Assembly (NCBI GenBank): GCA_017512905.1
Contig: JAFWEL010000048.1
Span: forward strand, 1-39,326
Length of the DNA stretch: 39,326 nucleotides
Direction of reading: 5' to 3'
From: Clostridia bacterium
Lineage (GTDB): Bacteria > Bacillota > Clostridia > Christensenellales > Aristaeellaceae
Each line of letters starts with the position of its first letter. Position 1 is the first letter of the stretch. Under the pieces are notes generated by a model. It was given only the letters and a program-made list of their open reading frames with translations. It did no database searches and was not told where the DNA came from. Made by a program: the position numbers and the translations under genes. Positions 10,831 through 39,326 of the stretch are shown here, in pieces.

Positions 10831-10870
10831 AAATTCTGATTTATCGAGCACAGCTCGATAAATCAGAATT
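10831..10870. repeat. Compact hairpin copy of the AAATTCTGATTTATCG repeat
   Basis: The 18 bases at 10832-10849 are the exact reverse complement of 10853-10870, with a three-base loop. It belongs to the family whose arm is GCAAATTCTGATTTRTCG. It lies downstream of the likely transcription start of the cytidylate-kinase-like gene, so it should be transcribed as a leader hairpin. Confidence 0.95.
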
Positions 10871-10886
10871 GATGTACCTCCCCTTC

Positions 10887-10915
10887 ATTATACCACACCC
10901 GGGCCGATAATGCTA
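10887..10915 (-). promoter_or_regulatory. Promoter for the cytidylate kinase-like gene
   Basis: On the minus strand TAGCAT (10915-10910), a 17 bp spacer and TATAAT (10892-10887) point at the gene starting at 10777. The transcript would begin near 10880 and include the repeat hairpin. Confidence 0.55.
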
Positions 10916-10928
10916 CATTTTATTCCGC

Positions 10929-13100
10929 TCAGTCCTCCGCCTTCAGCGTGTACACCACCGACGCGGCGTCGCCGTAGGGCAGCGGGCAGCACAGGCCGGC
11001 CTGCATCAGTTCGTCGCCGCCGAACACCTCGCCCGTCTCCATCACGCGGTAGCGCCGCTTCGCGTCCAGCCCCGCCAGGCGCACCAGCGGCGGCATGGCG
11101 TTCGGTCGGGCCATGGCGCGCACCAGCGTGAATATGGCCTCGCTCCGGTCCCCGGCCACGCTCATCCACGCCGCGTCATTGTCCTCGAAGGGGGTCTGCA
11201 GCCAGTACAGCCTGCCGTACAGGCGCACATTCTGGGTCCGGTTGGCAAAGGCCACCTGGCTGATCAGGGTTTCCCGCTCCCCGTCGGTCAACTTCCGGGG
11301 ATCCAGCTCGTAGCCGAAGCTTCCGCCCAGGGCCGTGGCAAAGCGCGTCTCCAGGGGCGTGACCCTGGCCGTCTGGTGGTTCGGCACGGCGCTGACGTGG
11401 CAGCCCATCGTGGACGGCGGGAACAGCATCGTGGTGCCGCACTGGATCTCCACCCGGCAGAGGGCGTCGGTGTTGTCGGAGCACCAGATCTGGGGCACGT
11501 AGTACAGCATGCCCGCGTCAAAGCGCCCGCCGCCGGAGGCGCAGCCCTCGAACAGCACGTCCGGGAAGGCCGTCACCAGCCGCTCCATCACCGCGTAGAG
11601 CCCCAGCATATAGCGGTGGGCCGTCTCCTTCTGCCGGTCGGCGGGCAGCGCCGCCGAGCCGATGTTGGTGAAATTGCGGTTCATGTCCCACTTCAGGTAG
11701 GTCGCGCCGCTGGCCTTCAGGGTGTCGCTCACCGCCTGAACCACAAAACCCTGGATTTCCGGGCGGCCCATGTCCAGCACCAGCTGGTGGCGGGAGTTGA
11801 TGCCCTCCCGGCCCGGGATGTGCAGGCACCAGTCGGGATGGGCCCGGTAGAGGTCGGAATCCGGCGAGATCATCTCCGGCTCCATCCAGATGCCGAATTG
11901 CAGCCCCAGCGCCCGCACCCTTTCCCCCAGGCCCTCCAGGCCCTCGGGCAGCTTGCGGCGGTCCACGGACCAGTCGCCCAGGGAGGTATAGTCGTCATCC
12001 CGGTGGCCAAACCAGCCGTCGTCCATCACGAACAGCTCCACCCCGGCGTCCGCGGCGGCCTTCGCAATGGAAACCAGCTTGTCGGCGTCAAAGTCGAAGT
12101 AGGCGGCCTCCCAACTGTTCAGCAGCACCGGCCTGGGCCGGTTCATCCAGCGCCCGGGCAGCAGGTGGTTCTCCCACAGGCTGTGGAAGCCCCGGCTCAT
12201 GCCGCCGATGCCCTCGGCGGAATACACCACCACGGCCTCCGGAGCCTGGAAGGACGCGCCGGGTAGCAGCTGCCAGGCGAAATCCCGCTCGTCAATGCCC
12301 ATCAGCAAGCGGGTCGCGCCGAACTGGGAGACCTCGGCGTTCGCGATGAAGTTGCCGCTGTAGACCAGCGTCGCGCCAATGGCCTCCCCAAGCGCCTGGG
12401 TGGTTTCCGGCCGGACCAGCGCCATGAACGGCGAGGCCTGGGCGCTGCTGGCGCCCCTGCGGCTGGAGACCCCCTGGTGGCCCGCCGCCAGGGGACGGCG
12501 GCTGAGGCTGCGCTCCCGGGCCCACGCTCCCGGCAGGGTGATCAACTCCCAGCCGTCATCGGGCATGTCCAGGCAGAGGCTGTAGGCCCGGGTGACGTTC
12601 AGCGGCGCTTCGCCCCCGTTCACCAGCCTGGCGCTTCGGGTCACGGCGGGACAATCGTCGTAGATGGCGTAGTCCAGCAGGACGGTCAGGCCGGTGTGGG
12701 CGTCCTTCAGCGTGAGCCTCAGCGCCGCGCTGCCCTCGCCCCGGGTGGCAGGCAGGCCCTCCAGCGCGGGCTTGGCCTCAAGCGTCTCCGCCTTTTCCAC
12801 GCGCAGGTCCACAGCCCAGCTGCCGTCCGGGCCTTCCACGGTCAACGCGCCGTCCCGCATGTCGCCCAGCCCGAAGGAGGGGTATTCCTGGGGCAGCCGG
12901 TCCAGGGTGCACTCCTGGACGCTGAAGCCCTCGTCCGCCGGAACGTTGGCCCTGCGCAGCAGGTTCTCGGCGTTCAGCCGCTCCAGCCGTGCGCCGAAGT
13001 AGAGGTGGGCCAGCACGCCGCCAGGCATTTCCCGCATCACGTAGCTGACCTGTTCATTCCTGAGGTGATAGAGGTTGCCCTCCCGAAGTATCTCCGCCAT
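10929..13100 (-). CDS. Alpha-galactosidase, glycoside hydrolase family 36
   Basis: The start is taken as the ATG at 13100 (MAEILREGNLYHL), giving 723 residues, normal for bacterial GH36. It removes terminal alpha-1,6-galactose from melibiose or raffinose-type sugars. The nucleophile is Asp472 in KWDMNRNF and the acid/base is Asp542 in CSDNTDA. The 70-residue spacing equals that of characterised GH36 enzymes. FVMDDGWFGHRDDD and EGCASGGGRFD are further family blocks. There is no signal peptide, so it is cytoplasmic. No sugar transporter or regulator is adjacent. It lies 82 bp after precorrin-2 dehydrogenase on the same strand, with a GC hairpin between, so read-through from the tetrapyrrole operon is possible. 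Confidence 0.93.
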   Translation of the reverse strand: MAEILREGNLYHLRNEQVSYVMREMPGGVLAHLYFGARLERLNAENLLRRANVPADEGFSVQECTLDRLPQEYPSFGLGDMRDGALTVEGPDGSWAVDLRVEKAETLEAKPALEGLPATRGEGSAALRLTLKDAHTGLTVLLDYAIYDDCPAVTRSARLVNGGEAPLNVTRAYSLCLDMPDDGWELITLPGAWARERSLSRRPLAAGHQGVSSRRGASSAQASPFMALVRPETTQALGEAIGATLVYSGNFIANAEVSQFGATRLLMGIDERDFAWQLLPGASFQAPEAVVVYSAEGIGGMSRGFHSLWENHLLPGRWMNRPRPVLLNSWEAAYFDFDADKLVSIAKAAADAGVELFVMDDGWFGHRDDDYTSLGDWSVDRRKLPEGLEGLGERVRALGLQFGIWMEPEMISPDSDLYRAHPDWCLHIPGREGINSRHQLVLDMGRPEIQGFVVQAVSDTLKASGATYLKWDMNRNFTNIGSAALPADRQKETAHRYMLGLYAVMERLVTAFPDVLFEGCASGGGRFDAGMLYYVPQIWCSDNTDALCRVEIQCGTTMLFPPSTMGCHVSAVPNHQTARVTPLETRFATALGGSFGYELDPRKLTDGERETLISQVAFANRTQNVRLYGRLYWLQTPFEDNDAAWMSVAGDRSEAIFTLVRAMARPNAMPPLVRLAGLDAKRRYRVMETGEVFGGDELMQAGLCCPLPYGDAASVVYTLKAED

Positions 13101-13135
13101 GTCGCTTCTTCCTCTCATTTCTGATTTCATCCGGA

Positions 13136-13155
13136 CGCGGCGCATCCACGCCGCG
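13136..13155 (-). terminator. GC hairpin between precorrin-2 dehydrogenase and alpha-galactosidase genes
   Basis: CGCGGCG (13136-13142) pairs with CGCCGCG (13149-13155) over six bases. There is no T-run, so it may be only a weak terminator or a leader structure. Confidence 0.3.
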
Positions 13156-13182
13156 ATATACAGGGTTGTGCGCGTCAGTCGT

Positions 13183-13650
13183 TCAAGTCAACTTGTGTTC
13201 AAGGCATTCCCGCACGGCCTCCGTGGCCCTCCGGGCCAGCCTGTGATCCCCGCCCCCGGCGCTGACGCCCGCCACGACCGCGCCGCTGCGGGCGATGCCG
13301 GGAAACAGGAAGTCGCACCTGTGCCGGTCGCTGGCGTCGTTCACCGGAATGCCTCTGGCGCGGCAGGCCCGGACAATCCCGGCGTTCAGCACCCCGTTGT
13401 CGGTACAGGCCAACACCAGCTCCGTGCCGTCCAGGTCCTCCTCCCGATAAGCCCTCTGACAGACCTTCACCCGGCCTTCGGCGGCCAGCGCGGCGATGTC
13501 CGGGTGAATCGCCGACGCGACGACGGTGACCCGGGGGCAGAACTGCGCCAGCGTTCCCACGCGCCGCGCGGCGATTCGGCCGCCTCCCACCACCAGCACC
13601 TGCCTGGCGGACAGGTCCACGAACATCGGGAAGTAAGGATAGTCCGTCAT
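13183..13650 (-). CDS. Precorrin-2 dehydrogenase (siroheme synthase N-terminal type)
   Basis: The 155-residue protein oxidises precorrin-2 to sirohydrochlorin with NAD+. It matches the N-terminal Met8/CysG module: YFPMFVDLSARQVLVVGGGRIAARR (Rossmann glycines), VLACTDNGVLNAGIV, and the PVNDASDRHRCDFLFPGIA block typical of the family. It is the short form without a separate methylase domain; the methylase is the CobA-HemD protein of the same cluster. Its start lies one base after the stop of the preceding surface-protein gene and its ribosome binding site is inside that gene, so translation should be coupled. Confidence 0.9.
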   Translation of the reverse strand: MTDYPYFPMFVDLSARQVLVVGGGRIAARRVGTLAQFCPRVTVVASAIHPDIAALAAEGRVKVCQRAYREEDLDGTELVLACTDNGVLNAGIVRACRARGIPVNDASDRHRCDFLFPGIARSGAVVAGVSAGGGDHRLARRATEAVRECLEHKLT

Positions 13651-13651
13651 A

Positions 13652-14740
13652 TCAGCGCCTCCCCCTCTTCACGAAGTGGTTCAGCACCGCGCCCACGACG
13701 ATGATTGCCAGCGAGATATACAGCACCTTTTTGGCCGCCTCCTGGGGGATCCGGCTCTTGTCGCCCAGGGATTCGGAATAGAAGGTCAGCGTGTATTCGA
13801 TCTCCAGGGGATCGCCCATGGCCGTGGTGTCCGCGATAACCTCCATTGGCTCGTCCATCGCTGTGATGGGGATCTCGAAGGTGGAATTGCCGCCGTCTGT
13901 GGTCAGATTTTCATAGACGGTCTCGCCAATGACCATGTAATCGTAGTAGGGGCTGCTCCAAAGCAGGCGGGCATAGGCCCTGCCCTCCCGCACGATCAGC
14001 AGCGTGGGAGAGCTGACGCTGGCCCGGCCGCTGCCGCCTGCAAGGTTGACCTCTATGGAGTACTCTCCATCGGAGCGCGGCAGGGAGACCGGCTCCAAGG
14101 TCATGGGCCCGGCCTCTTGCGCGTCGTCATCCGGCTCAGCCTCGCCGTCCGTCTCAAAGCCGATCACGGCCTTTTCCACCAGTTCATAGTCGGGCAGCTC
14201 GAAGGCCAGAGCCTCCTCCGGCAGCGCCGAAGCGTCGAACAACAGCTGCCGGTCGTACCACATCTGCCGGTTTCGGCTATAGGCCGCGCATTCAAAAGGC
14301 GCATTGAGCGCCGGAACGGGAATGGTGAACACCGTGAAGCGCTGTCCCTCGTCCCCCAAAATCCAATCTCCCTCCGGGGCGTTGCCCGCCTGCTCCGCCG
14401 TGCCCATGTAGACGTACAGGTAGCTGCGGCTGCCGATGGTGATATTGGCCGTCATCTCGCCGCCGCTTACAGTCAACTTCGCCTCGATAATCTTGAAAAA
14501 CACCGAGGTGGATTCCACCTTTACCTCATAGGTGCCATCCTCAATGTCCCGGCCGTAGATGGGGACCATGCCGTAGTGGCCGACCTTGCGCTTGCGTATG
14601 GCCCGCTCGGCCTCCGCCTGCCTGTCGGTATAGTCCGTCTTTTTTGGCGTCAGTACCGTCACCGCCAGCGCGGAGGGTAGCGCAAAGATCAGCATCAGCG
14701 CCAGCATCAGGCACACCCTTCGGCGAAAACGCTTGTTCAT
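13652..14740 (-). CDS. Membrane-anchored surface protein with two NEAT/Shp-like beta domains
   Basis: The 362-residue protein has a signal peptide (residues 1-26, ending SALA) and a C-terminal membrane helix (~338-357) followed by KRGRR, the layout of a cell-wall-exposed anchored protein. Between them are two beta-rich repeats. The first (~68-190) begins DGTYEVKVES. The second (~233-335) begins DGEYSIEVNLAGGSGRA and ends DTTAMGDPLEIEYTLTFY. The second aligns along its length with the N-terminal domain of the binding protein at 31043. The pattern resembles NEAT or Shp-type heme-binding domains; that is inference and the ligand is not shown. It is in the tetrapyrrole gene run and coupled to precorrin-2 dehydrogenase. 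Confidence 0.7.
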   Translation of the reverse strand: MNKRFRRRVCLMLALMLIFALPSALAVTVLTPKKTDYTDRQAEAERAIRKRKVGHYGMVPIYGRDIEDGTYEVKVESTSVFFKIIEAKLTVSGGEMTANITIGSRSYLYVYMGTAEQAGNAPEGDWILGDEGQRFTVFTIPVPALNAPFECAAYSRNRQMWYDRQLLFDASALPEEALAFELPDYELVEKAVIGFETDGEAEPDDDAQEAGPMTLEPVSLPRSDGEYSIEVNLAGGSGRASVSSPTLLIVREGRAYARLLWSSPYYDYMVIGETVYENLTTDGGNSTFEIPITAMDEPMEVIADTTAMGDPLEIEYTLTFYSESLGDKSRIPQEAAKKVLYISLAIIVVGAVLNHFVKRGRR

Positions 14741-14771
14741 TCCCCACTCCCCATTCCCAATTTTCCCTTCA

Positions 14772-14955
14772 GGGTACCTCTAAAAACTAACGCGTCGCCC
14801 GACGAGGTGAATTTTAGACAGATTTGGCTTGCAAAAGACGCAGGCTGCATGGCGGGCAGTCAAGGTTTTTGCAAGGCGAAGATGGCTTCCTAAAGGACTG
14901 GCTTCGCGTCGGAAATTCAGCCGTCCGGCGGCGATGAGAGTTTATAGAGGCGCCC
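14772..14955. mobile_element. Small MITE-like element with imperfect terminal inverted repeats
   Basis: GGGTACCTCTAAAAACT (14772-14788) and the reverse complement of 14939-14955 (GGGCGCCTCTATAAACT) match at 14 of 17 positions. CCCTTCA occurs directly at 14765-14771 and again at 14953-14959, so a short target duplication (TTCA) is possible. The 184 bp interior has no convincing gene. The element lies between the ABC-2 permease (its stop is seven bases beyond the right end) and the surface protein. Confidence 0.6.
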
Positions 14956-14961
14956 TTCATA

Positions 14962-15693
14962 CTACAGGTTCTTCTTCCGGTAGATGAACACCACCGAAAT
15001 CGCCCCGAAAACCGCCAGATAGGCCAGCAGCACGGCAAAGCCGAAGGCCCCGGGCGACTGGCCGCCGGAGATGGCCCGGATCATGGCGCTGGCCTGTGAG
15101 AGGGGCAGCAGCGATATGACCTGGCGGAACCCGGCGGGCATCTGGTCGGTGGAGAAGAAGGTGTTACACAGAAAGGACATCGGCATGATGATGTAGGAGG
15201 TAAACCGCGGCGCGTCGGTGTAGCTCTTGGCCAGGAACGACAGCACCAGCGCGATGGTGGAGAACACCGTGCCGTTGAGGAACATGATGCCGAAGGACAC
15301 CGCGTTGAACACCAAACCGGTGCGGATCGGCGCGGTCAGCAGCAGGATCACTCCGGCCGCGTACATGCCCCGCAGGCTGCCGCCGATGATCTGGCCCAGT
15401 ATGAACTGCCACAGCGGCGTGGGCGACACCATGATCTGGTCCAGCGCCCGTTCATACAGCCGCTGTACGCTCATGTTCTGGGCGATGGCCGAGAAGGAGC
15501 CGGTCATGGTCGCCATGGCCACGATGCCGGGGATCAGGAAGTTCAGGTAGGGCTCCCCGTGGGAAGTGGTCTGTATGCCCAGGCCGAATATGATCAGGTA
15601 CATCAGCGGCGAGATCATCGCGGCCACGGTGATCTTGAAGAAGTCCCGGCGGAATTCCACCCACTTTTCCCATAGTACGGTGATGATCCCCAT
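14962..15693 (-). CDS. ABC-2 type transporter permease
   Basis: The 243-residue membrane protein is the permease partner of the ATPase just upstream; its ATG follows that gene's stop codon with no gap. It has about six hydrophobic segments (for example ISPLMYLIIFGLGI, LIPGIVAMATMTGSFS, FGFAVLLAYLAVFGAISVVF). The SFLAKSYTDAPRFTSYIIMPMSFLCNTFFS region is typical of DrrB/NodJ-like ABC-2 exporters. The substrate is unknown. Its place inside a tetrapyrrole gene run suggests a related compound, which is inference. A small repeat element begins right after its stop. Confidence 0.9.
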   Translation of the reverse strand: MGIITVLWEKWVEFRRDFFKITVAAMISPLMYLIIFGLGIQTTSHGEPYLNFLIPGIVAMATMTGSFSAIAQNMSVQRLYERALDQIMVSPTPLWQFILGQIIGGSLRGMYAAGVILLLTAPIRTGLVFNAVSFGIMFLNGTVFSTIALVLSFLAKSYTDAPRFTSYIIMPMSFLCNTFFSTDQMPAGFRQVISLLPLSQASAMIRAISGGQSPGAFGFAVLLAYLAVFGAISVVFIYRKKNL

Positions 15694-16527
15694 CTACAGC
15701 TTCCTCCCCGCCACATCCACGAACACGTCCTCCAGCGTCGTGGAGCGTAACGCCGCGTCGCTGCCCGCCTTTGAAAGGTAGGCAATCGCGTCGCCCCGGT
15801 TGTGAAAATACCGGCTGACCAGGTTGTCCGCCGAGGTCTCGTCCACCGCGAACGCGCCCAACTCATGAATCAGGTTATCAGGGCTGTCCAGCTTTTGCAG
15901 CTTTCCCCGGTTGATCAGCGCCACGCGGCCACACAGCGCCTGGGCCTCCTCGATGTAGTGGGTGGTCAGCACGATGGTCATTTTATCGCCGTTGACCCTT
16001 CTCAGCAGGTTCCACATCTGTCTGCGGCTCAGCGCGTCCATGCCCGCCGTGGGCTCGTCCAGCAGCAATATCTCCGGCTCGATCATCAGCGCCCGGCAGA
16101 TCATCAGCTTGCGCCTCATGCCGCCGGACAGGTGGCGCACCGTGCGATGGCGATACTCGATCAGGCCGGCAAATTCCAGCAGCGCGTCGGTCTTTTGCTT
16201 GATGACCTTCCGGGGGAGGAAGTACAGCCGCCCCTGGTACTCCATGACCTCGTCCATATTCATGTCCTGCCGCATGGAATACTCTTGGGTGATGACCGAC
16301 AGCTTGCGCTTTTGTTGGCTGGCCTTGCGGTCCAGCCTCTGCCCGTCGATCAATATCTCGCCCTCCGTGGGCAGCAGCACCGTGGACATCATGGAGATGG
16401 TGGTGGTCTTGCCCGCGCCGTTGGGACCCAGGAGACCGAAGAACTCCCCGGTCTCAATGCGCAGGCTCAGGTGGTCCACCGCCGTGAAATCGCCGAATTT
16501 CTTGGTCAGGTTTTTAAGCTCAATCAT
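15694..16527 (-). CDS. ABC transporter ATP-binding protein (DrrA/CcmA-like)
   Basis: The 277-residue ATPase has Walker A (LLGPNGAGKTTT), Q-loop VITQEYSMRQD, signature LSGGMRRK, Walker B ILLLDEPTAGMD and the H-loop TTHYIEEA. A ~60-residue C-terminal tail ends RSTTLEDVFVDVAGRKL, usual for the DrrA class paired with ABC-2 permeases. Its start overlaps the end of cobI by eight bases (16520-16527), so its translation is probably coupled to a cobalamin-pathway enzyme. Confidence 0.93.
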   Translation of the reverse strand: MIELKNLTKKFGDFTAVDHLSLRIETGEFFGLLGPNGAGKTTTISMMSTVLLPTEGEILIDGQRLDRKASQQKRKLSVITQEYSMRQDMNMDEVMEYQGRLYFLPRKVIKQKTDALLEFAGLIEYRHRTVRHLSGGMRRKLMICRALMIEPEILLLDEPTAGMDALSRRQMWNLLRRVNGDKMTIVLTTHYIEEAQALCGRVALINRGKLQKLDSPDNLIHELGAFAVDETSADNLVSRYFHNRGDAIAYLSKAGSDAALRSTTLEDVFVDVAGRKL

Positions 16528-17212: not shown

Positions 17213-17327
17213 GATCTTGCTCCTTTTCACCATCGTTGTGTTGTTTGAATGAGAAATGAGGAATGGTTGCTGAAATCCCTCAGATTTCTTGGGTTCAATA
17301 GTACAGGGGTATTGGGCGGTTGACCGC

Positions 17328-17368
17328 AAATTCTGATTTATCGAGCTCTGCTCGATAAATCAGAATTT
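17328..17368. repeat. Compact hairpin copy of the AAATTCTGATTTATCG repeat
   Basis: The 19 bases 17328-17346 are the exact reverse complement of 17350-17368, with a three-base loop TCT. It is nearly identical to the copy at 10831-10870. It lies between cobA-hemD and cobI, so on the minus-strand transcript it would sit between two genes of one operon. Confidence 0.95.
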
Positions 17369-17387
17369 TCCCGCCCGATTCGCGCTG

Positions 17388-19990: not shown

Positions 19991-20019
19991 GGAGCGTGGG
20001 AAGTTGACCGGTTATATGC

Positions 20020-20050
20020 AAATTCTGATTTGTCGCTCCGCGACAAATCA
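20020..20050. repeat. AAATTCTGATTTGTCG repeat copy in the hemB leader
   Basis: The left arm AAATTCTGATTTGTCGC (20020-20036) faces a shortened right arm GCGACAAATCA (20040-20050), giving an 11 bp stem and three-base loop. It lies downstream of the hemB promoter and upstream of its start. The bases after it (CCGAACAGA...) resemble those after the half copy at 29734. Confidence 0.9.
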
Positions 20051-20101
20051 GGCCGAACAGAAACAAGCACGGAATTGCTTTATTAACAGGAGCGATGATT
20101 T

Positions 20102-22227: not shown

Positions 22228-22260
22228 TCCGGACGCACAGGTGACGCTTCGGGTGTATGC

Positions 22261-22598
22261 AAATTCTGATTTATCGAGGTGTTGCTGAGCACGCGGAACC
22301 CCTCCGACCCCGCCTTTGGCGGGGCCACCTCCCCTTTCAGAGGAGGCTTTTGGCCAACTTACCGGGGGTATCGGGGGCGGCAGCGCCCCGATCTTCAATC
22401 GTACGCGGCGGCGTGTACGCCGCGGGCGGGGCCTTTTTTGTGGCAGGGAGCCTGTCGACCAGAGCAAAAAAGGCTTCCTTGCAGATTTGCCGCCCGGAAA
22501 TCGCTTGCGATTTCAGGCAAATCTATCAAAGGGGTGGTATTGGCGGGGGAAGCAGTTCCCCCGCCAAGCGGGCGCAAGCCCGCGACAAATCAGAATTT
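22261..22598. mobile_element. 338 bp mosaic MITE-like element with AAATTCTGATTTRTCG ends
   Basis: This fills the 399-base gap between the DUF362 and oxidoreductase genes. The left end AAATTCTGATTTATCG (22261-22276) is the inverse of the right end at 22583-22598 apart from A/G at one position. The interior contains the GC-rich repeat (22293-22347), a CGGGG...CCCCG hairpin and an AGATTTGCC/GGCAAATCT pair. It has no credible gene. Bases 22348-22413 match the sequence after the same repeat at the right edge of the window almost exactly. One reading frame through it is open into the downstream oxidoreductase. Confidence 0.8.
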
Positions 22599-22626
22599 GT
22601 CAAACAAGATTCGGAGGTCTAAATAT

Positions 22627-24006
22627 ATGAACCATTACGACGTCATCATCATCGGGGCCGGTCCCGGGGGGATCTACACGGCCTGGGAGCTGGTCAAGCG
22701 GCGGCCCGAATTGAAGGTGGCCGTGTTTGAAAGCGGCAATCCGCTGAATAAGCGCAAGTGTCCCATCGACGGCAAGGCGGTGAAGGCCTGCATCAAGTGT
22801 CCCACCTGCGCCATCATGAACGGCTTTGGCGGCGCGGGGGCCTTTTCCGACGGCAAGTACAACATCACCAACGACTTCGGCGGCACGCTGTACGAGTACA
22901 TCGGCCGGGACGAGGCCATGTCGCTGATGCGCTACGTGGACGACATCAACGTGGAAAATGGCGGCGAGGGCACCACGCTGTATTCCACCGCGGGCACCCG
23001 CTTCAAGAAGCTGTGCATGCAGAACCGGCTGACGCTGCTGGAGGCGTCGGTGCGCCACCTGGGCACCGACATCAACTATGTGGTGCTGGGCAACCTGTAC
23101 GAGCAGCTAAAGGACAGGGTGACCTTCCATTTCAACACCCAGGTGGACGCCATCGAGGTCATCGGCGACGACGCGGGCTACCGTGTGCGCTACGGCGGCG
23201 AGGCCGCCGAGTGCGACGAGTGCGTGGTTTCCGTGGGCCGCAGCGGCAGCAAATGGATGGAGAAGGTCTGTGACGACCTGGGCATCAAGACCAAGCGCAA
23301 CCGGGTGGACCTGGGTGTGCGGGTGGAGCTGCCCGCGGTGATCTTCGCCCACATCACCGACGAGCTGTACGAGAGCAAGATCGTCTACCGCACCGAGAAG
23401 TACGAGGACCACGTGCGCACCTTCTGCATGAATCCCCGGGGCATCGTGGTTAACGAGAACACCAACGGCATCGTCACCGTCAACGGCCACAGCTTTGAGG
23501 ACGAGGGCCGCAAGACGGAGAACACCAACTTCGCGCTGCTGGTGTCCAAGCACTTTTCCGAGCCCTTCCACGACTCCAACGGCTACGGCGAGAGCATCGT
23601 GCGCCTTTCCAACATGCTGGGCGGCGGGGCCATCGTGCAGCGCTTCGGCGACCTGGAGCGGGGCCGGCGCAGCACCCCGAAGCGCATCGAGGAGGGCACC
23701 GTGAAGCCCACCCTGGCCGCCACCCCCGGCGATTTGAGCCTGGTGCTGCCCAAGCGCATCCTGGACGGCATCATCGAGATGATCCACGCCCTGGACAACA
23801 TCGCCCCCGGCACCGCCAACGACGACACTCTGCTCTATGGCGTGGAGGTCAAGTTCTACAACATGGAGGTGGCGCTGAACCGGAACCTGGAGACCTGCCA
23901 CCGCGGCCTGTACGTGATCGGCGACGGCAGCGGCGTCACCCACTCCCTCAGCCACGCCAGCGCCAGCGGCGTGTATGTGGCAAGGCAGATCGCGGCTAAA
24001 TACTGA
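22627..24006 (+). CDS. FAD-dependent oxidoreductase
   Basis: The 459-residue protein starts at the ATG nine bases after GGAGG. YDVIIIGAGPGGIYTAWEL is the FAD-binding Rossmann start. KCPIDGKAVKACIKCPTCAI carries four cysteines, followed by GFGGAGAFSDGKYN. GLYVIGDGSGVTHSLSHASA is the C-terminal FAD motif. It resembles the COG2509 group of uncharacterised FAD-dependent dehydrogenases, so the substrate is unknown. The open frame continues upstream through the mosaic element, but that part is not protein-like. The last two codons and stop lie inside a repeat hairpin shared with the convergent gene. Confidence 0.88.
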   Translation: MNHYDVIIIGAGPGGIYTAWELVKRRPELKVAVFESGNPLNKRKCPIDGKAVKACIKCPTCAIMNGFGGAGAFSDGKYNITNDFGGTLYEYIGRDEAMSLMRYVDDINVENGGEGTTLYSTAGTRFKKLCMQNRLTLLEASVRHLGTDINYVVLGNLYEQLKDRVTFHFNTQVDAIEVIGDDAGYRVRYGGEAAECDECVVSVGRSGSKWMEKVCDDLGIKTKRNRVDLGVRVELPAVIFAHITDELYESKIVYRTEKYEDHVRTFCMNPRGIVVNENTNGIVTVNGHSFEDEGRKTENTNFALLVSKHFSEPFHDSNGYGESIVRLSNMLGGGAIVQRFGDLERGRRSTPKRIEEGTVKPTLAATPGDLSLVLPKRILDGIIEMIHALDNIAPGTANDDTLLYGVEVKFYNMEVALNRNLETCHRGLYVIGDGSGVTHSLSHASASGVYVARQIAAKY

Positions 24007-24034
24007 TTTGTCGCTCTCCGACAAATCAATATTT
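23998..24034. repeat. AAATTCTGATTTGTCG-family hairpin containing the stop codons of two convergent genes
   Basis: AAATACTGATTTGTCG (23998-24013) pairs with 24019-24034 at 15 of 16 positions over a five-base loop. The left arm differs from the family arm at one position. The TGA at 24004-24006 ends the oxidoreductase and the TGA on the other strand (24028-24026) ends the aldo/keto reductase. It could also terminate transcription both ways. Confidence 0.9.
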
Positions 24035-25207
24035 CAGCACCTTCGGCGCGCCCCAGGCCGCGATCTTGTAGATCGGGTTCTCGAGGCGCTTTTTCACGTC
24101 GTCCAGCTTTTCCCGGATGGGGATGTGCTGGGGACAGTGCTGCTCGCACTTGCCGCACTTCACGCAAAGGCCCGCGTTGCTGCGCACCTTGCGCAGGGTG
24201 GTGCACATCATGTATTCCCGCATGCCGGAGACCAGGCCGTCGGCGTAGCTGGCGTTGTAGGCAGCGAAGCAGGTGGGGATGTCCACCCCCTTCGGACAGG
24301 GCTGGCAGTAGCCGCAGCCGGTGCAGCCCACCTTCATGGTTTTGTGGATGGCGGCCAGCGCCCGGTCGTACACCGACAGCTCGTTGTCGGTCAGCGCGCC
24401 GGGCAGGCTCTCGCTGGCGATGCGGCAGTTTTCCTCCACCTGGGCGACGTCGTTCATGCCGGAGAGCACCACGGTCACCTGGGGGTGGTTCCAGATCCAG
24501 CGCAGGCCCCAGTCCGCGGGGCTGCGGCCCGGGTCGGCGGCCTCGAAGGCCTTTCGGGCGGCCTGGGGCAGTCCGTTCGCCAGCTTGCCGCCCCGGAGGG
24601 GCTCCATGATGATCACCGGCAGGCCCTTTTCGTGGGCGTAATTCAGGCCGTCGATGCCCGCCTGGCTGCGCTCGTCCATATAGTTGAACTGGATCTGGCA
24701 GAAATCCCAGTCAAAGGCGTCCACCAGCGCCTTGAACTGGAGCGTGCCGCCGTGGAAAGAGAAGCCGATGTTGCGGATCTGTCCGGCGGCCTTTTTCCTT
24801 GCGATCCAGTCCTGTATGCCCAGGCCGCACAGGCGCTGCCAGCTGTTGGCGTCGTTGAGCATGTGCATCAGGTAGTAATCCACGTAGTCGGTCTGCAGGC
24901 GTTCCAGCTCCTCGTCGAAATAGCGGTCCAGGTCCTCGGCTCTGTTGATGCGGTACTGGGGCAGCTTGGTGGCCACCCGCACCTGCCCGCGGCAGCCGTG
25001 GGCCTTCAGGAACTGCCCCAGGCAGACCTCGCTGCCGGGATAGATGTAGGCGGTGTCGAAGTAGTTGACGCCCCGCTCCAGGGCCAGGGCCATCTCCCGG
25101 TCGGCCTTGGCCTGGTCGATGGCGCCGCCGCGCTTGGTGAAGCGCATGCAGCCGAAGCCCAGCGCCGACAGCGCGTCGCCATTCCTGGGATTGGTTCTGT
25201 ATTGCAT
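24026..25207 (-). CDS. Aldo/keto reductase with C-terminal ferredoxin-type cluster region
   Basis: The start is the ATG at 25207, seven bases after GGAGG, giving 393 residues. The barrel shows the AKR features GFGCMRF, GVNYFDTAYIYPGSE (catalytic Asp and Tyr), TKLPQ and LQTDYVDYYLMHM. The C-terminus has two cysteine groups, CTGCGYCQPCPKGVDIP and CVKCGKCEQHCPQHIP, able to hold 4Fe-4S clusters. This architecture is frequent in Clostridia; substrates are mostly unknown. A clear promoter lies upstream. Its last codons lie in the shared hairpin. Confidence 0.92.
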   Translation of the reverse strand: MQYRTNPRNGDALSALGFGCMRFTKRGGAIDQAKADREMALALERGVNYFDTAYIYPGSEVCLGQFLKAHGCRGQVRVATKLPQYRINRAEDLDRYFDEELERLQTDYVDYYLMHMLNDANSWQRLCGLGIQDWIARKKAAGQIRNIGFSFHGGTLQFKALVDAFDWDFCQIQFNYMDERSQAGIDGLNYAHEKGLPVIIMEPLRGGKLANGLPQAARKAFEAADPGRSPADWGLRWIWNHPQVTVVLSGMNDVAQVEENCRIASESLPGALTDNELSVYDRALAAIHKTMKVGCTGCGYCQPCPKGVDIPTCFAAYNASYADGLVSGMREYMMCTTLRKVRSNAGLCVKCGKCEQHCPQHIPIREKLDDVKKRLENPIYKIAAWGAPKVLKY

Positions 25208-29705: not shown

Positions 29706-29733
29706 CGTATAAGGCAAGGGTTCAGGCGTAGGC

Positions 29734-29748
29734 AAATTCTGATTTATC
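29734..29748. repeat. Half copy of the AAATTCTGATTTATCG repeat
   Basis: Only the left arm AAATTCTGATTTATC is present, preceded by the usual GC. The following bases (CCGAACAGACACAGC...) resemble those after the hemB-leader copy, suggesting a copy that lost its loop and right arm. It lies downstream of ilvE and the BMP gene. Confidence 0.75.
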
Positions 29749-29784
29749 TCACCGAACAGACACAGCCCGGAACAATGTCGTGGC

Positions 29785-30932: not shown

Positions 30933-30982
30933 GGGCCGGTGGGAATCTTCATTCGTTGTTTACAAATCCGGTAGCGCGGAAT

Positions 30983-31011: not shown

Positions 31012-31042
31012 ATCGGCATACAATGAAAGGGTGTGGATACCT

Positions 31043-32551: not shown

Positions 32552-32554
32552 TCG

Positions 32555-32591: not shown

Positions 32592-32673
32592 AAATGTGTC
32601 CAATTGGTGAACTGGCGGCGGCAGGGATATATTCTGTCATCTAAATAAAGAACCCAAAAAGGCCCAAATAATA

Positions 32674-32702
32674 TAGCATTTTTGGGATAGCTGTGGTATA
32701 AT
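32674..32702 (+). promoter_or_regulatory. Promoter-like sequence at the left edge of the insertion sequence
   Basis: TAGCAT (32674-32679), a 17 bp spacer and TATAAT (32697-32702) face right and end exactly where the proposed IS end begins. Transcription from it would run antisense to the transposase gene. Confidence 0.5.
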
Positions 32703-32728
32703 CCGGTTTTTGACAACAAAAATAAGGA

Positions 32729-32771
32729 AAAAGCCTCAAAGTGCCTGCAAATAGGGCATTTTGAGGCTTTT
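32729..32771 (-). terminator. Terminator of the transposase gene
   Basis: AAAAGCCTCAAAGTGCC (32729-32745) pairs with 32755-32771 with a single wobble. On the minus strand it ends in TTTTTCC and lies 25 bp after the transposase stop. Confidence 0.75.
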
Positions 32772-32796
32772 GAAGAATTTCCGAATACACGTTACA

Positions 32797-34566: not shown

Positions 34567-34583
34567 ATGCATCACCCGGTACT

Positions 34584-34612
34584 ATTATAACATACCGTGG
34601 CATAACGTGCAA
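34584..34612 (-). promoter_or_regulatory. Transposase promoter
   Basis: On the minus strand TTGCAC (34612-34607), a 17 bp spacer and TATAAT (34589-34584) lie so close to the start codon (18 bases to 34566) that the mRNA leader would be only about 10 bases. Confidence 0.75.
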
Positions 34613-34741
34613 CTATATATTCAAATGTTGACAAAAAAATAACGCTCCCATCGGTGTTCTCTTCGTCTTGTTTGCTCACTCGCTGTCAAACACCCGAATT
34701 TACCCATCTCAACACTTACCAAAACTTTTCACAATGTTCCC

Positions 34742-34770
34742 TTGCCCTGCGTTGCGTTTTGTTGTATAAT
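34742..34770 (+). promoter_or_regulatory. Promoter of the rpsF-ssb-rpsR operon
   Basis: TTGCCC (34742-34747), a 17 bp spacer and TATAAT (34765-34770) lie 68 bp before rpsF and 45 bp beyond the proposed IS end. Confidence 0.75.
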
Positions 34771-34830
34771 CTTATCTGGCGCATCCTTGCCACGGTTAAC
34801 CGGCCGTGGCCGAAGTCCATAAGGAGGTGA
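34771..34830 (+). promoter_or_regulatory. Candidate S6:S18 autoregulatory leader
   Basis: The rpsF leader contains GCCACGG (34789-34795) pairing perfectly with 34804-34810 across TTAACCGG, followed by CGAAG and the ribosome binding site AAGGAGGTGA. A leader RNA with a conserved CCG that binds the S6:S18 complex is described for many bacteria at exactly this place. The match here is by position and a CCG-containing loop, not by a model search. Confidence 0.55.
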
Positions 34831-34838
34831 AAGTAAGT

Positions 34839-35276
34839 ATGAACCAGTATGAAGTCATGTACGTGATCGATCCTACGCTGGAGGACAGCGCCAGGATTGA
34901 GCTGATCAACCGTTTTTCCGATCTGGTGGTGAAGAATGGCGGTGAAGTGGATCGCGTGGACGAGTGGGGCAAGCGCCGCCTGGCCTACGCCATCCAGTAC
35001 AAGACCGAGGGCTATTATGTGCTGATGTACATCAAGGCTCCCGCCGATCTGCCCCGGGAAATCGAGCGTAACATGCAGATTTCCGACAGCGTCCTGCGCT
35101 ATCTGACCGTGCGTTACGAGGGCGAGCTGCCCGCCAAGCGCGAGCCCCTGAAGCCCTACGCGCCCCGCGAGGCCGCGCCCGCCGCTGAGGCCGCCGCGCC
35201 TGCTGAAGCCGCTGCCGTCGAGGCTCCCGCGGCCGAAGTGGTTGACGACGAAAAGCCTGAGTCTGAGGCCGAATAA
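34839..35276 (+). CDS. rpsF: Small ribosomal subunit protein bS6
   Basis: The start is the ATG at 34839 (MNQYEVMYVIDPTLED), eight bases after AGGAGGTGA, giving 145 residues. The S6 core is residues ~1-95 (VDRVDEWGKRRLAYAIQYKTEGYYVLMYI). Beyond it is a ~45-residue alanine, proline and glutamate-rich tail ending ESEAE, longer than in E. coli or B. subtilis. S6 pairs with S18 in the 30S platform. It is first in the conserved rpsF-ssb-rpsR operon. Confidence 0.97.
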   Translation: MNQYEVMYVIDPTLEDSARIELINRFSDLVVKNGGEVDRVDEWGKRRLAYAIQYKTEGYYVLMYIKAPADLPREIERNMQISDSVLRYLTVRYEGELPAKREPLKPYAPREAAPAAEAAAPAEAAAVEAPAAEVVDDEKPESEAE

Positions 35277-35304
35277 CGACGTCCTGCAAAGGATGGTGTG
35301 AAGT

Positions 35305-35733
35305 ATGAATAAAGTCATCCTGATCGGCAATCTTGCCAATGATCCCGAGCCCTTTACCACGCAATCCGGAATATCCCGTTCGACGTTCCGCATTGCCGTG
35401 CAGCGCCGCTTTGCCAACGCGCAGGGTGTGCGCGAGGCCGACTTCCTGACTGTCGTCGCGTGGCGCCAGAGCGCCGACTTCTGTAACCGCTATCTCACCA
35501 AGGGCAGCAAGGTTGCGGTGGAAGGCAGTATTCAGGTCCGTTCCTATGATGCGCAGGACGGTTCCAAGCGCTATGTGACAGAAATTATTGCCGATAGTGT
35601 CGAGTCTGTTGGCAGTCGTGGTGATGGCCAGGCCCATCCCCGTGACAATGGCCCCACGCCGCCGCCCGCGCCGCCCGCCGGCTCCGCGATGAACGACTTC
35701 ACCGAGGTTGAGGACGACGAGCTGCCGTTCTGA
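35305..35733 (+). CDS. ssb: Single-stranded DNA-binding protein
   Basis: The 142-residue protein has an OB-fold (~1-108: MNKVILIGNLANDPEPF, RIAVQRRFANAQGVREADFL, GSKVAVEGSIQVRSYDAQDG), a short Gly/Pro-rich linker and the acidic tip DDELPF that recruits repair and replication partners. It is a short SSB, with a linker of only ~30 residues. It lies 28 bp after rpsF. A 162 bp gap with two small hairpins separates it from rpsR. Confidence 0.97.
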   Translation: MNKVILIGNLANDPEPFTTQSGISRSTFRIAVQRRFANAQGVREADFLTVVAWRQSADFCNRYLTKGSKVAVEGSIQVRSYDAQDGSKRYVTEIIADSVESVGSRGDGQAHPRDNGPTPPPAPPAGSAMNDFTEVEDDELPF

Positions 35734-35895
35734 TCCGGTTGCGTGCGTCGCTCCGCACGAGGACGCCGCTGAACCGATCGTCGATTGAACGGGTCCGTCT
35801 GTCAACCCACCGCGCCTGTGGCGCAGCCATGGGCCAATTCTTCTTTGGGAGTGCGCCTCGCGCACGCCCTATAATCCAAAAAGGAGGAACGCAAT

Positions 35896-36150
35896 ATGTC
35901 TGAGGATAGAGGCGAACGCATTCGCCGCCCCCGCGGCCGCAAGCCGCGCAGGAAGGTGTGTGCATTCTGCGTGGATAAGATCCAGCACATCGATTACAAG
36001 GATGTGGCCAGGCTCCGCCGTTTCACCAGCGAGCGCGGCAAGATTCTGCCCCGCCGCATGACCGGCACCTGCGCAAAGCACCAGCGTCAGCTCTCCACGG
36101 CCATCAAGCGCGCTCGCACGATCGCCCTGATGCCCTATGTGTCTGACTGA
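35896..36150 (+). CDS. rpsR: Small ribosomal subunit protein bS18
   Basis: The 84-residue protein starts at the ATG nine bases after AAGGAGG. The N-terminus is basic ([13 protein letters not shown]), followed by [21 protein letters not shown] and [24 protein letters not shown], the standard S18 core. Two of its cysteines (CAFC) belong to the zinc-type version. A TATAAT lies at 35870-35875 just upstream but has no -35 at 17 bp, so expression probably comes from the rpsF promoter. A terminator follows. Confidence 0.97.
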
Positions 36151-36167
36151 TTGAAGGTCAAACGAAG

Positions 36168-36196
36168 GACACCGCCCAAACGCGGTGTCTTTTTTT
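36168..36196 (+). terminator. Rho-independent terminator of the rpsF operon
   Basis: GACACCGC (36168-36175) pairs with 36182-36189 over six bases, followed by seven T residues (36190-36196). Confidence 0.92.
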
Positions 36197-36246
36197 CGCG
36201 GCGAACAAGTCATTTAATCCATTACCGTCATTTTGCTATTTTTCCC

Positions 36247-36275
36247 TTTACAAAAACTTGCTTTCATGCCATAAT
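36247..36275 (+). promoter_or_regulatory. Promoter for the HD-GYP gene
   Basis: TTTACA (36247-36252), a 17 bp spacer and CATAAT (36270-36275) lie 99 bp before the start at 36375. Confidence 0.55.
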
Positions 36276-36374
36276 ATAGTCGGTATGGTATGGATTGCAA
36301 TAATCCGCATGATGGGGAAGCACGGCGGAGGGCCGGCCCTTGAGCGTGGATTTGCCTGACGGAGGGAATAGATC

Positions 36375-38519
36375 ATGGAAATCAATCCGAGGGGGACGGA
36401 GATGTCCAGGCGCAGCCGGTGGGTTCACCTGGTCGTGCTGTGCGTGGTCGGCCTGTTGATCAACTATCTGCTGGCCAAGGTGCCGCTGGCGCTGAAGTTT
36501 CCCCTGTTCCTGGACAATGTGGGCAGCGCGCTGGCCGCGGCGCTGGGCGGCTACATCCCCGGCATCGTGGTGGGCTTCTTCACCAATTTCATCAACGGCA
36601 TCGGCGCTCACGAGACCACCTATTATGGCTCGCTGACGGTGCTGATCGCCATATGCTCGGCCTGGTTCGCGGAGCGGGGCTATTACGGCAAGCTGTCGAA
36701 GCTGCCCATCGTGGTGTTCACGTTCGCGCTGATCGGCGGCGGGCTGGGCTCGGTGCTGACGTGGACGCTGTACGGCTTTGAGTTCGGCACCAGCCTTTCC
36801 GCGCCGCTGGCCCAGCGCATACTGGATACCGGGATCATGAGCCCGTTCTGGGCCCAGTTTGCGGCGGACATGCTGGTCGACGTGCTGGACAAGGCGCTCA
36901 CCGTGGCCATCGTGGCCATCGTGCTGAAGGTGCTGCCCCAGTCGCTGAAGGACAAGCTCTATTTCGCCGGTTGGCAGCAGGCGCCGCTGACCCGGAAAAA
37001 GCTGATGGCGGCGGACCACAAGCGGGCGCGCAGGATGTCGCTGCGCTCGAAGATCATCCTGCTGGTGGCCGCGGCCATGGTGATCATCGCCGGGGTCGTC
37101 ACGGTAATCAGCTTCATCCATTTCCAGAACGCCGCCATCGACGAGCAGATCAAGCTCGCTTACGGCGTGGCCAACGTGGCCTCGGACGCCATCGTCGCGG
37201 ACCGGGTGGACGAGTTCATCGAGAAGGGCGAGGCCGCCGAGGGCTATGCCCTGATCGACAAGCGCTTCAACGACCTGGTATCCAGCGCCGAGGAGATCGA
37301 ATACGTCTACGCCTACAAGATCCTGGAGGACGGCTGCCACGTGGTGTTCGACGCCGATACGCCGGAGACGCCCGGCTCCCAGCCCGGGGATGTGGTGGAA
37401 TTTGACGAGGCCTTCATGAAGGACCTGCCGATCCTGCTGGCCGGCGGCGAAATCCCGCCCATCACGTCCAACGAAAAGTACGGCTGGCTGCTGACGATCT
37501 ACAAGCCGGTGTACGACAGCCAGGGCGTCTGCCAGTGCTATGTGGGCGTGGACATCAACATGAACCACATCGCCACCAGCGGCTATCAGTTCATGGCCCG
37601 CGTGGTCTCGCTGTTCTTCGGCTTCTTCCTGCTGATCCTGACCGGGGCGATCTGGCTGGCCGAGTACAACATCATACTGCCCATCAACACCATGGACATC
37701 GCCACCGAGAACGCCGTCTACAACACCGAGGAGGCTCGCGCCAGGACGGTGGAGCGCATCCACGAGCTGGACATCCACACCGGCGACGAGATCGAGAACC
37801 TGTATCATTCCGTGGTCAGAACCACCGAGGACATGGTGGGCACCATTGAAAATGTGGAGCACCAGAACGAGGTGATCAGCCGGCTGCAGAACGGCCTGAT
37901 CCTGGTGCTGGCCGACATGGTGGAGAGCCGCGACAAGTGCACCGGCGACCACGTGCGCAAGACCGCCGCCTATGCCGACATCATACTGCGGGAGCTGAAG
38001 CGGAAGGGGGTCTACCTGGACCAGCTGACCGATGCGTTCATGCAGGACGTGGTCAACTCCGCGCCGCTGCATGACGTGGGCAAGATCCAGGTCTCCGACG
38101 CCATCCTCAACAAGCCCGGCAAGCTGACCGACGAGGAATTTGAGATCATGAAGACCCACACCACCGCCGGCGCGGAGATCATCTCCCGGGCCATCGACAT
38201 GGTGGCCGAGGAAAACTCCGGCTACCTGAAGGAGGCCATGAACCTGGCCCACTACCACCACGAGAAGTGGAACGGCCAGGGCTATCCCTGCGGCCTGGCG
38301 GGCGAGGACATCCCGCTGTCGGCGCGCATCATGGCGGTGGCCGACGTGTTCGACGCGCTGGTGTCCAAGCGCAGCTACAAGGACGGCTTCCCCTTTGAAA
38401 AGGCCATGGACATCATCCGGGAGGGCTCCGGCAGCCACTTTGATCCCAAGGTGGTGGACGCCTTCGTCAGCGCCCAGGATGAGGTGCGGCGCGTGATGAA
38501 CACCTACATGGGGGCTTAA
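36375..38519 (+). CDS. HD-GYP phosphodiesterase with N-terminal ECF-S-like membrane module
   Basis: The 714-residue protein starts eight bases after GGAGGG. Residues ~15-190 form about five membrane helices with FPLFLDNVGSALAAALGGYI and VGFFTNFINGI, resembling the substrate-binding S component of ECF vitamin transporters. A second membrane part (~225-435) has helices on both sides of a ~165-residue extracellular sensor region, followed by a HAMP-like segment. The C-terminus (~505-705) is an HD-GYP domain: HDVGKI near 566, HHEKWNGQGYP near 634, and ADVFDALVSKRSY. Such domains degrade c-di-GMP. What the membrane module senses is unknown. Confidence 0.9.
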   Translation: MEINPRGTEMSRRSRWVHLVVLCVVGLLINYLLAKVPLALKFPLFLDNVGSALAAALGGYIPGIVVGFFTNFINGIGAHETTYYGSLTVLIAICSAWFAERGYYGKLSKLPIVVFTFALIGGGLGSVLTWTLYGFEFGTSLSAPLAQRILDTGIMSPFWAQFAADMLVDVLDKALTVAIVAIVLKVLPQSLKDKLYFAGWQQAPLTRKKLMAADHKRARRMSLRSKIILLVAAAMVIIAGVVTVISFIHFQNAAIDEQIKLAYGVANVASDAIVADRVDEFIEKGEAAEGYALIDKRFNDLVSSAEEIEYVYAYKILEDGCHVVFDADTPETPGSQPGDVVEFDEAFMKDLPILLAGGEIPPITSNEKYGWLLTIYKPVYDSQGVCQCYVGVDINMNHIATSGYQFMARVVSLFFGFFLLILTGAIWLAEYNIILPINTMDIATENAVYNTEEARARTVERIHELDIHTGDEIENLYHSVVRTTEDMVGTIENVEHQNEVISRLQNGLILVLADMVESRDKCTGDHVRKTAAYADIILRELKRKGVYLDQLTDAFMQDVVNSAPLHDVGKIQVSDAILNKPGKLTDEEFEIMKTHTTAGAEIISRAIDMVAEENSGYLKEAMNLAHYHHEKWNGQGYPCGLAGEDIPLSARIMAVADVFDALVSKRSYKDGFPFEKAMDIIREGSGSHFDPKVVDAFVSAQDEVRRVMNTYMGA

Positions 38520-38533
38520 ATCCCGACAAACAA

Positions 38534-38563
38534 CGGCGGCAAGGCACGGGAGCCTTGCCGCCG
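38534..38563. terminator. Hairpin between convergent genes
   Basis: CGGCGGCAAGGC (38534-38545) pairs perfectly with 38552-38563 over a six-base loop. It fills the 45 bp between the HD-GYP stop and the ABC ATPase stop. There is no T-run on either side. Confidence 0.5.
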
Positions 38564-38564
38564 C

Positions 38565-39158
38565 TTACATGTGCGTGTTATCGCCCAGGTCCAGCCGGTT
38601 TCCCCGGAAATCGGCGATGTCCTCGGGGTCGTGGGTGACCAGCAGCGTCGTCCGCCCGGCCAGCAGCGGCCGGCAGAAATCAATGGCCCGCCCGCGGGTG
38701 GCGGCGTCCAGTCCCTTGAAGGGCTCGTCCAGCAGCACCAATGGGGAGGGAAACAGCAGCGCCCGGGCCAAAGCGACCCGCCGGCGCATGCCGCCGCTGT
38801 ATTCGCTGACGGGTTGGCCCGACGCCTCCGCCAGGCCCAGGGAAGCCAGCGCCCCGGCGATGCGCGCCTCCCGTTGGGCGTCCCGCTTCAACACGCAGCG
38901 CAGGCAGTCCGCCGCGTCCAGCCGGGGCGGCAGGCGGTCCTCCTGGAACACCATGGAGATGCCGCCCTCCGGCACGCCGAGGACGCGGCCCCCGTCCGGC
39001 GTCTCAAGTCCGGCGATCAGCCGCAACAGCGTGGTTTTGCCGCAGCCCGACCGCCCCGTGACACAGGTGAGCGTGCCGTGAGGAAAGGTGTGGCTCAGGC
39101 CGTCCAGCACGACGTGGCCGTCGTAGGATTTGCGGAGATTTTCGATGATCAGATCCAT
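38565..39158 (-). CDS. ABC transporter ATP-binding protein (SsuB/TauB-like)
   Basis: The start is the ATG at 39158, preceded by AAAGGAA, giving 197 residues; this is short for the family. Walker A is TGRSGCGKTT, the Q-loop ISMVFQEDRLPP, the signature EYSGGMRRRVALARAL, Walker B LVLLDEPFKGLD, and the H-loop LVTHDPEDI. The FQEDRL stretch is typical of ATPases for nitrate, sulfonate, taurine or thiamine-precursor uptake. The permease and binding protein are not in the window and may lie beyond its right edge. An interspersed repeat begins 24 bp upstream of the start. Confidence 0.9.
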   Translation of the reverse strand: MDLIIENLRKSYDGHVVLDGLSHTFPHGTLTCVTGRSGCGKTTLLRLIAGLETPDGGRVLGVPEGGISMVFQEDRLPPRLDAADCLRCVLKRDAQREARIAGALASLGLAEASGQPVSEYSGGMRRRVALARALLFPSPLVLLDEPFKGLDAATRGRAIDFCRPLLAGRTTLLVTHDPEDIADFRGNRLDLGDNTHM

Positions 39159-39182
39159 GCGGGGGTTCCTTTCTTGGGGTGG

Positions 39183-39326
39183 AAATTCTGATTTGTCGGG
39201 GAGACGGAACCCCTCCGGCGCTACGCGCCACCTCCCCACTAGCTTCGCGTCGCAGGGGAGGCTTTTGGCTAACTTACCGGGGGTATCGGGGGCGGAGCGC
39301 CCCGATCTTCAATCGTACGCGGCGGC
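39183..39326. mobile_element. Left part of a second mosaic MITE-like element (cut by window edge)
   Basis: The left end AAATTCTGATTTGTCG (39183-39198) is followed by the GC-rich repeat (39204-39262). A tail then matches 22348-22413 almost base for base to the window edge. By comparison with the copy at 22261 it should run about 200 bp further and close with the inverse of its left end. Confidence 0.75.

Follow-up and report, generated by a model that had tools for sequence, protein, structure and literature searches.

A 39,326-nt stretch of DNA from a Clostridia bacterium of the family Aristaeellaceae (contig JAFWEL010000048.1 of assembly GCA_017512905.1; hereafter the window) carries repeated copies of a short inverted-repeat arm, GCAAATTCTGATTTRTCG, which also occurs hundreds of times in the rest of the genome. 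We read this arm as the subterminal inverted repeat of a family of miniature inverted-repeat transposable elements (MITEs) with IS66-type ends, several copies of which have duplicated 8 bp of their target (probability roughly 0.75). The arm is not the end of the element; the end, GTAACTGTTCAGTC, lies just outside the arm in a subset of copies. The family is new and of an already known kind, a MITE with IS66-type ends. Hairpins resembling repetitive extragenic palindromic (REP) sequences are often ascribed to REP-associated tyrosine transposases (RAYTs), and the copies of different age found here suggest another origin, from ordinary IS66-type mini-transposons that lose their ends while the hairpin remains. 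The arm thereby seems to outlive the true ends of the transposon, and a REP-like population seems to be what remains of an ordinary MITE.

The ends were recognised in the outer flanks of arms from the source genome (G000) and three other members of its genus (G008, G010 and G018), together referred to as the carriers. With at most two mismatches, TGTTCAGNCG is present in 56 of 418 outer flanks, 49 times at exactly 13 or 15 nt outside the arm (background 237 in 20,000), and the longer ACTGTTCAGTCGNATGC, at the same tolerance, is found 37 times in G000, 31 in G018, 29 in G008 and 13 in G010, compared with 0–4 times in the 24 other members of the genus. Copies with two ends mostly begin with GTAAC or GTATC, and the full unit can be written GTA(A/T)CTGTTCAGTC-(RGGT or GYATRC)-AAATTCTGATTTRTCG-interior-inverse. 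The intact solo form is 75 bp long and consists of a 37-bp hairpin between two ends, while in larger forms the arms, or two complete hairpins, enclose other DNA. Among the 12 solo hairpins in which both ends are recognisable, ten combine one type A (RGGT) with one type B (GYATRC) end and two have type A on both sides. Target duplication was scored for 29 two-ended elements in the fetched loci, 17 with the arm and 12 without it. An 8-bp duplication matching at 7/8 or better flanks 11 of the 29 and is exact in eight (shuffled mean 0.47, maximum 5); exact flanking repeats of 5, 7, 9 or 10 bp were never found in this set, and one of 6 bp was. Seven of the arm-bearing elements reach 7/8 and four of these are exact (0.51 and 0.24 in shuffles), the exact cases lying in carrier loci L060, L200 and L337 and in locus L349 of the genus member G023; four of the elements without the arm match, all of them exactly. 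By eye, the solo copy at L039:9456 also has GGTTGCAG on both sides, one base off the end, and two two-hairpin units with both ends (L051 and L194) lack the duplication, matching at 3/8 and 2/8. The outer flanks were also considered as an extension of the stem and rejected as such, with no pairing excess over shuffled partners, likewise in solo hairpins without ends.

An end beginning with GTAA together with an 8-bp duplication is what we take as a pointer to IS66. Matches to the IS66 transposase family PF03050 were obtained in 10 of the 28 genus genomes, nine of them above the cut-off, and GTAACTGTTCAGTC or GTAACTATTCAGTC stands on the 3' side of the gene at three of 13 IS66-gene loci, two in G006 and one in G019, where the stop codon of the gene lies inside the end sequence. 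Two of the end-bearing IS66 proteins, both encoded by partial genes, score above the Pfam IS66 cut-off and below that of NCBIfam; the third, a fragment, falls below the Pfam cut-off. The insertion sequence ISDge4, of the ISBst12 group of IS66, has the end GTAACTGCTCAGCA and an 8-bp repeat according to the available part of its description (PMC12898284), and 8 bp is likewise tabulated for two Paracoccus IS66 elements in the available part of PMC3281130. The ends common to the copies, the 8-bp duplications and the presence of the same end at IS66-gene loci therefore identify a MITE family with IS66-type ends, whose members an IS66 transposase would have moved in trans. The initial annotation, which suggested a transposase acting in trans on ends that carry the arm, was close: the transposase-type end, of IS66 kind, is found just outside the arm. 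The same 14-nt IS66-type end, at one mismatch or less, was also noted elsewhere in the genus, 226 times in G001, more often than in any arm carrier, and MITEs with this end and other interiors are found in G001 (L192:779-978), G003 (L345-L348) and G014 (L351). Several MITEs thus have IS66-type ends, and the arm is the lineage-specific interior of one of them.

The distribution of the arm points to a burst in a few species of the genus. Exact arms were counted over 150 genomes, 28 of the genus, G000 included, and 122 outside it: G000 has 386, G008 350, G010 143 and G018 96, five of the 24 other genus members have 1–4 and 19 have none, and outside the genus only two genomes contain the exact arm, in one and two copies. 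At one mismatch or less the inner 16-mer occurs 595 times in the source genome (3.5 Mb), its reversed control not once. Hundreds of copies, confined to a few species of one genus and accompanied by 8-bp target duplications, agree with the mobile unit that had been proposed from the window. Among 84,980 species (one genome each, the window's own records possibly left out), the perfect 37-bp hairpin was found in 52 stretches from six metagenome-assembled genomes, RUG14340, RUG11052, RUG11941, RUG12424, RGIG2774 and RGIG2671; the RUG prefix stands for rumen, and the two RGIG records are from goat omasum by title. A literature search on titles and abstract starts found no description of the arm or of an IS66-type MITE, and a full-text search found no paper joining 'ISBst12' with 'MITE' or 'miniature inverted-repeat' with 'Oscillospiraceae'.

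Within the window, ten matches to the arm with at most three mismatches were found against 0.04 expected from shuffles, starting at 10829, 10856(-), 17326, 17353(-), 20018, 22259, 22583(-), 23996, 29732 and 39181. All seven places named in the initial annotation carry the arm (the start positions given there are those of AAATTCTG, 2 nt inside it), among them the perfect hairpins at 10831 and 17328, with stems of 18 and 19 bp and 3-nt loops, and the 338-bp element at 22261-22598, which is indeed bounded by the arm at both ends. The count of seven fell short by one degenerate copy at about 7152-7351, and the outer ends at 22241, 29714 and, weakly, 20000 had been missed. Outer ends in the window were scored by identity, with a 1% threshold of 0.61. 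The copies and one adjoining element are listed below, with the strand where one is assigned.

~7152..7351: degenerate eighth copy, with left arm TGATTATGATTTGGCG and a right end-like sequence ACGCTGAACAGTATA (score 0.56, below threshold).
10829..10873: solo A-type hairpin of 41 bp, with an 18-bp stem and a 3-nt loop; outer end not recognisable.
17243..17301, + strand: left half of a heptamer-flanked element (heptamers, then a GAAATCC...GATTTC core), split by the hairpin.
17326..17370: solo A-type hairpin of 41 bp with a 19-bp stem, within the remains of the older heptamer-flanked element; outer end not recognisable.
20000..20064: decayed 37-type hairpin with partly deleted right arm and weak ends, the left at 20000-20019 (identity 0.60, just below the threshold of 0.61) and the right, read by eye, CCGAACAGAAAC at 20053-20064.
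22241..22600: 338-bp element with the arm at both sides; left IS66-type end GTGACGCTTCGGGTGTATGC at 22241-22260, 14/20 identical; right end not recognisable.
23996..24036: solo 37-bp hairpin, AAATACTG variant; outer end not recognisable; the G010 ortholog of this site is a two-hairpin composite.
29714..29763: internally deleted copy, with left end GCAAGGGTTCAGGCGTAGGC (0.75), arm, and right end CACCGAACAGACAC (by eye).
39183..39326, + strand: left part of a long copy that the contig end truncates; outer end not recognisable.

A GC-rich module (CGGAACCCCTCCG...CCACCTCCCC...GGGGAGGC) was seen inside copies in both orientations, in the window at 7160-7330, 22280-22350 and 39200-39270, and looks like a nested repeat.

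An inventory of the forms of the repeat covered 1.46 Mb, roughly one tenth of the four carrier genomes. It excludes locus L067, which shares sequence with L269 and L270, so that the final 2.5 kb of L067 are uncounted. Hairpins were typed by length, 37 versus 41/42 bp, because sequence-based typing misread hairpins with GC in the loop as A/G hybrids. The inventory comprises 97 solo hairpins, 33 two-hairpin units (143-337 bp), 29 arm-to-arm elements (149-440 bp), seven mixed units and 89 single arms, of which 52 lie within 450 nt of the end of a fetched stretch and face that end, so that amplified copies seem to break assemblies. The 37-bp solo hairpin has the stem ...TTTGTCGC and a loop of 3 nt, the 41/42-bp form the stem ...TTTATCGAGC and a loop of 3-4 nt, and loop sequence varies between solo hairpins. 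In four of the 33 two-hairpin units, inspected by eye, a core flanked by inverted heptamer repeats has the 37-type hairpin on its GAAATCC side and the 41-type on its CAAATCC side. The mix of forms differs between species, from 55 solos and one pair in G000 to 21 solos and 25 pairs in G010. Neighbouring arms facing inward at a distance between 440 and 4500 bp were not found in the inventoried sequence, and therefore no copy with a transposase gene was seen; an autonomous copy bounded by arms was accordingly dropped as a candidate for these 1.46 Mb.

The copies appear to be of different ages. Flanking genes were mapped between species so that sites could be compared, and from a first list of orthologous sites (31 rows, with duplicate rows and chance arm matches in genes) only hairpin sites were used. 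Copies with at least one recognisable end (six units) had an arm at the same site of another carrier in one of 16 comparisons, and copies without ends (31 units) in 30 of 48 (Fisher p 9e-5 by comparison; 1/6 versus 22/31 by unit, p 0.02); for G009, a genus member with two exact arms, none of 18 comparisons was shared. At six orthologous sites (window 23996/L188, L058/L265/L266, L052/L274, L186/L200 and two L047/L288 sites) a two-hairpin unit in one species corresponds to a single hairpin in another, which fits collapse of the long form to one hairpin, or the reverse. The proposal that the unit shrinks to its ends thus gains indirect backing, although these sites do not establish the direction. 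No base-perfect empty site was found, the nearest being G018 L200 compared with G008.

Outer ends are recognisable far less often than partner arms. Starting from one exact arm, a partner arm (at most 3/16 mismatches, within 560 bp) is present in 131 of 140 cases and an adjacent outer end (at most 3/14 mismatches) in 23 of 140, and starting from ends with one mismatch or less, the arm is present in 19 of 25. That the ends are mostly unrecognisable while the hairpin is nearly intact suggests some process that preserves the hairpin. Of 104 non-consensus positions in solo hairpins, 39 carry matching changes on the two arms, a part of which could come from shared ancestry of variants, and among 21 pairs of orthologous hairpins, some sites being seen from both sides, the arms are 0.87 identical and the central loop bases 0.46. 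After insertion, the outer ends would decay freely and the palindrome would be kept, through either selection acting on the folded strand or template switching in which one arm is copied onto the other. It is possible, in our view at slightly less than even odds, that a DDE-type MITE is a source of REP-like hairpins, its ends eroding while the palindrome is actively maintained, and that hundreds arose in this way without any RAYT; active maintenance might then act through selection on a transcribed or single-stranded hairpin, or through palindrome-templated correction. In a genus with copies ranging from fresh to old, whether and how a palindrome is maintained can be measured.

Several observations weigh against a MITE family with IS66-type ends and a maintained palindrome. 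Eighteen of the 29 two-ended elements remain below 7/8 in the duplication test, including all four 75-bp units (5, 6, 3 and 6 of 8), and in these the duplication has at best decayed. Of the 418 flanks, only 76 rank above 99% of intergenic control flanks, and the flanks of end-less copies hold a weak G-rich pattern that mismatches the end at positions -5 and -6. Ten of the 13 IS66 loci lack the end, and no IS66 with the end GTAACTGTTCAGTC was found in the four draft carriers, which is weak evidence given that the drafts are fragmented: the IS66 genes of G010 and G018 show no such end at up to four mismatches in loci of 3.8-3.9 kb, G008 has no IS66 match, and G000 has one fragment only, below the family cut-off. 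Multi-copy insertion sequences are often lost from fragmented draft assemblies. The site comparisons between carriers are not independent, and gaps of up to 1.5 kb were allowed, so that some 'shared' arms may be neighbours. Finally, the arm identity of orthologous hairpins is only about that of the neighbouring genes (88%), and 54 of their 67 changed positions are altered on one arm only, with 13 joint changes; maintenance is therefore moderate and far from perfect. In our reading the palindrome is moderately maintained once inserted, whether through selection or through one arm being copied onto the other.

Some of these observations would also be expected if the REP-like hairpins were older and independent, and an IS66-type MITE had later captured and amplified one of them, in which case the end-less copies never had ends. 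The more frequent sharing of end-less copies, the weak motif in their flanks that differs from the end sequence, the absence of a duplication at 7/8 or better in the four 75-bp solo units, and the likeness of long stems with variable 3-nt loops to REPs all fit such a history. We nevertheless consider it unlikely, as end identity in solo hairpins grades from 1.00 into noise with no gap, the one-A, one-B arrangement of 10 of the 12 solos with both ends is that of an oriented element, and the hairpin and the long end motif are abundant in the same four genomes. In addition, G023, which has no exact arm, contains one copy that has both ends, an exact duplication and a degenerate arm. Erosion of MITEs with IS66-type ends remains our preferred reading.

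The initial annotation had also offered a REP-like sequence moved by a RAYT, which did not survive inspection of the RAYT flanks. PF01797, the family we searched for such Y1 transposases, has matches in 16 of the 28 genus genomes; Y1 genes of RAYT size are present in all four carriers, and Y1 genes occur also in genomes without the arm. The carriers have nine Y1 genes, seven RAYT-like and two IS200-like. All seven RAYT-like genes have GGGACrGTT-type repeats within 250 bp, and the arm lies near only one of them, there in a MITE with its own end; no arm occurs in the 11 and 6 kb fetched for the two IS200-like genes. Y1 enzymes are not known to make target duplications. The flank test covered 16 of 20 fetched Y1 loci, and a GGGACrGTT-type repeat was observed beside 15 of the 16 RAYT-like genes tested and the arm beside one. 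These repeats form a separate REP-like family that flanks RAYT-like genes of the genus (L135, L136, L138, L139, L140 and L142); of two proteins tested against the NCBIfam REP-associated tyrosine transposase model, one scored above the cut-off and the other below. The two-hairpin units do resemble REP dimers with unlike loops as portrayed in the available part of PMC3733652, but the flank test speaks against a RAYT as mover, and we regard a REP, or a REP doublet forming a hairpin (REPIN), mobilised by such an enzyme as extremely improbable.

Equally remote is an origin of the copies as conserved regulatory hairpins, such as terminators, that were never mobile. Genes were called with our own codon-usage script, and 100 nt were taken off the 5' side of each to define its core. 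In the inventoried 1.46 Mb of the carriers, 195 of 203 units fall outside these cores, as do 95 of the 97 solo hairpins, in keeping with the avoidance of gene interiors first noticed in the window. Five of the eight units inside cores are weakly matching single arms, and one, the 338-bp element of the window, owes its place there to a gene start called too far upstream. This intergenic placement, stems that fold well and a mild excess between convergent genes (31/169 versus 92/912 gaps) would suit terminators, but copies also lie in tandem (116/169) and divergent (22) gaps, genomes of a single genus have anywhere from 0 to 386 copies, some copies show target duplications or species-specific sites, and the window has no Rfam match at gathering score (0 matches). 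The gene-context counts rule out a terminator role as the origin; a terminator-like regulatory function may be a later role of the hairpins.

Two further repeats were encountered beside the arm. Intergenic heptamer elements, at 17243-17301 of the window, at L046:4910-5180 and at L187 and L196 (orthologs of window 17326), consist of inverted arrays (AGGTTTT, AGTGGCT, AGTATTT, GGAATGA, GAATTGA and others) around a core with two small hairpins, GAAATCC/GGATTTC and CAAATCC/GGATTTG, and are also present in genus members without the arm (G016, G024). A 24-bp unit, CCTAAAGGACTAGCTTCGCGTCGC, occurs as an insert inside repeats of the arm family, sometimes in tandem (L042:1-200, L036:100-220, L037:9990-10210), with 41 copies in 670 kb of G000, 33 in 409 kb of G010, one in 160 kb of G018 and none in 220 kb of G008; to us it is reminiscent of the small dispersed repeats of cyanobacteria.

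Compared with known systems, the arm family is closest in its ends to the ISBst12 group of IS66, as ISDge4 also has an end that starts GTAACTG.TCAG and an 8-bp duplication (available part of PMC12898284). It differs from ISDge4 in having no transposase gene and a palindromic interior, and a cognate gene was not found in the carriers. With REPs and REPINs it shares short intergenic hairpins, single or in inverted pairs, with loops that are often unlike (available part of PMC3733652), but its stems are longer (16-19 bp), it makes 8-bp duplications, and the RAYT-like genes here are flanked by another repeat. Nor does it have a conserved tetranucleotide beside the stem: neither GTAG nor CGTC is conserved there, and no base outside the arm exceeds 57%. 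For CGTC, one large REP class, no transposase is known according to the same part of PMC3733652. A further comparable group, the Correia elements of Neisseria, has ends of other sequence and a TA duplication. Also named Correia repeat enclosed elements (CREE) or Neisseria miniature insertion sequences (NEMIS), they resemble the arm family in being present in more than 120 copies in one genome, in their inverted repeats and in occupying mostly conserved places and some new ones (available part of PMC2649163), but in the arm family most outer ends have been lost and the inner hairpin has been kept.

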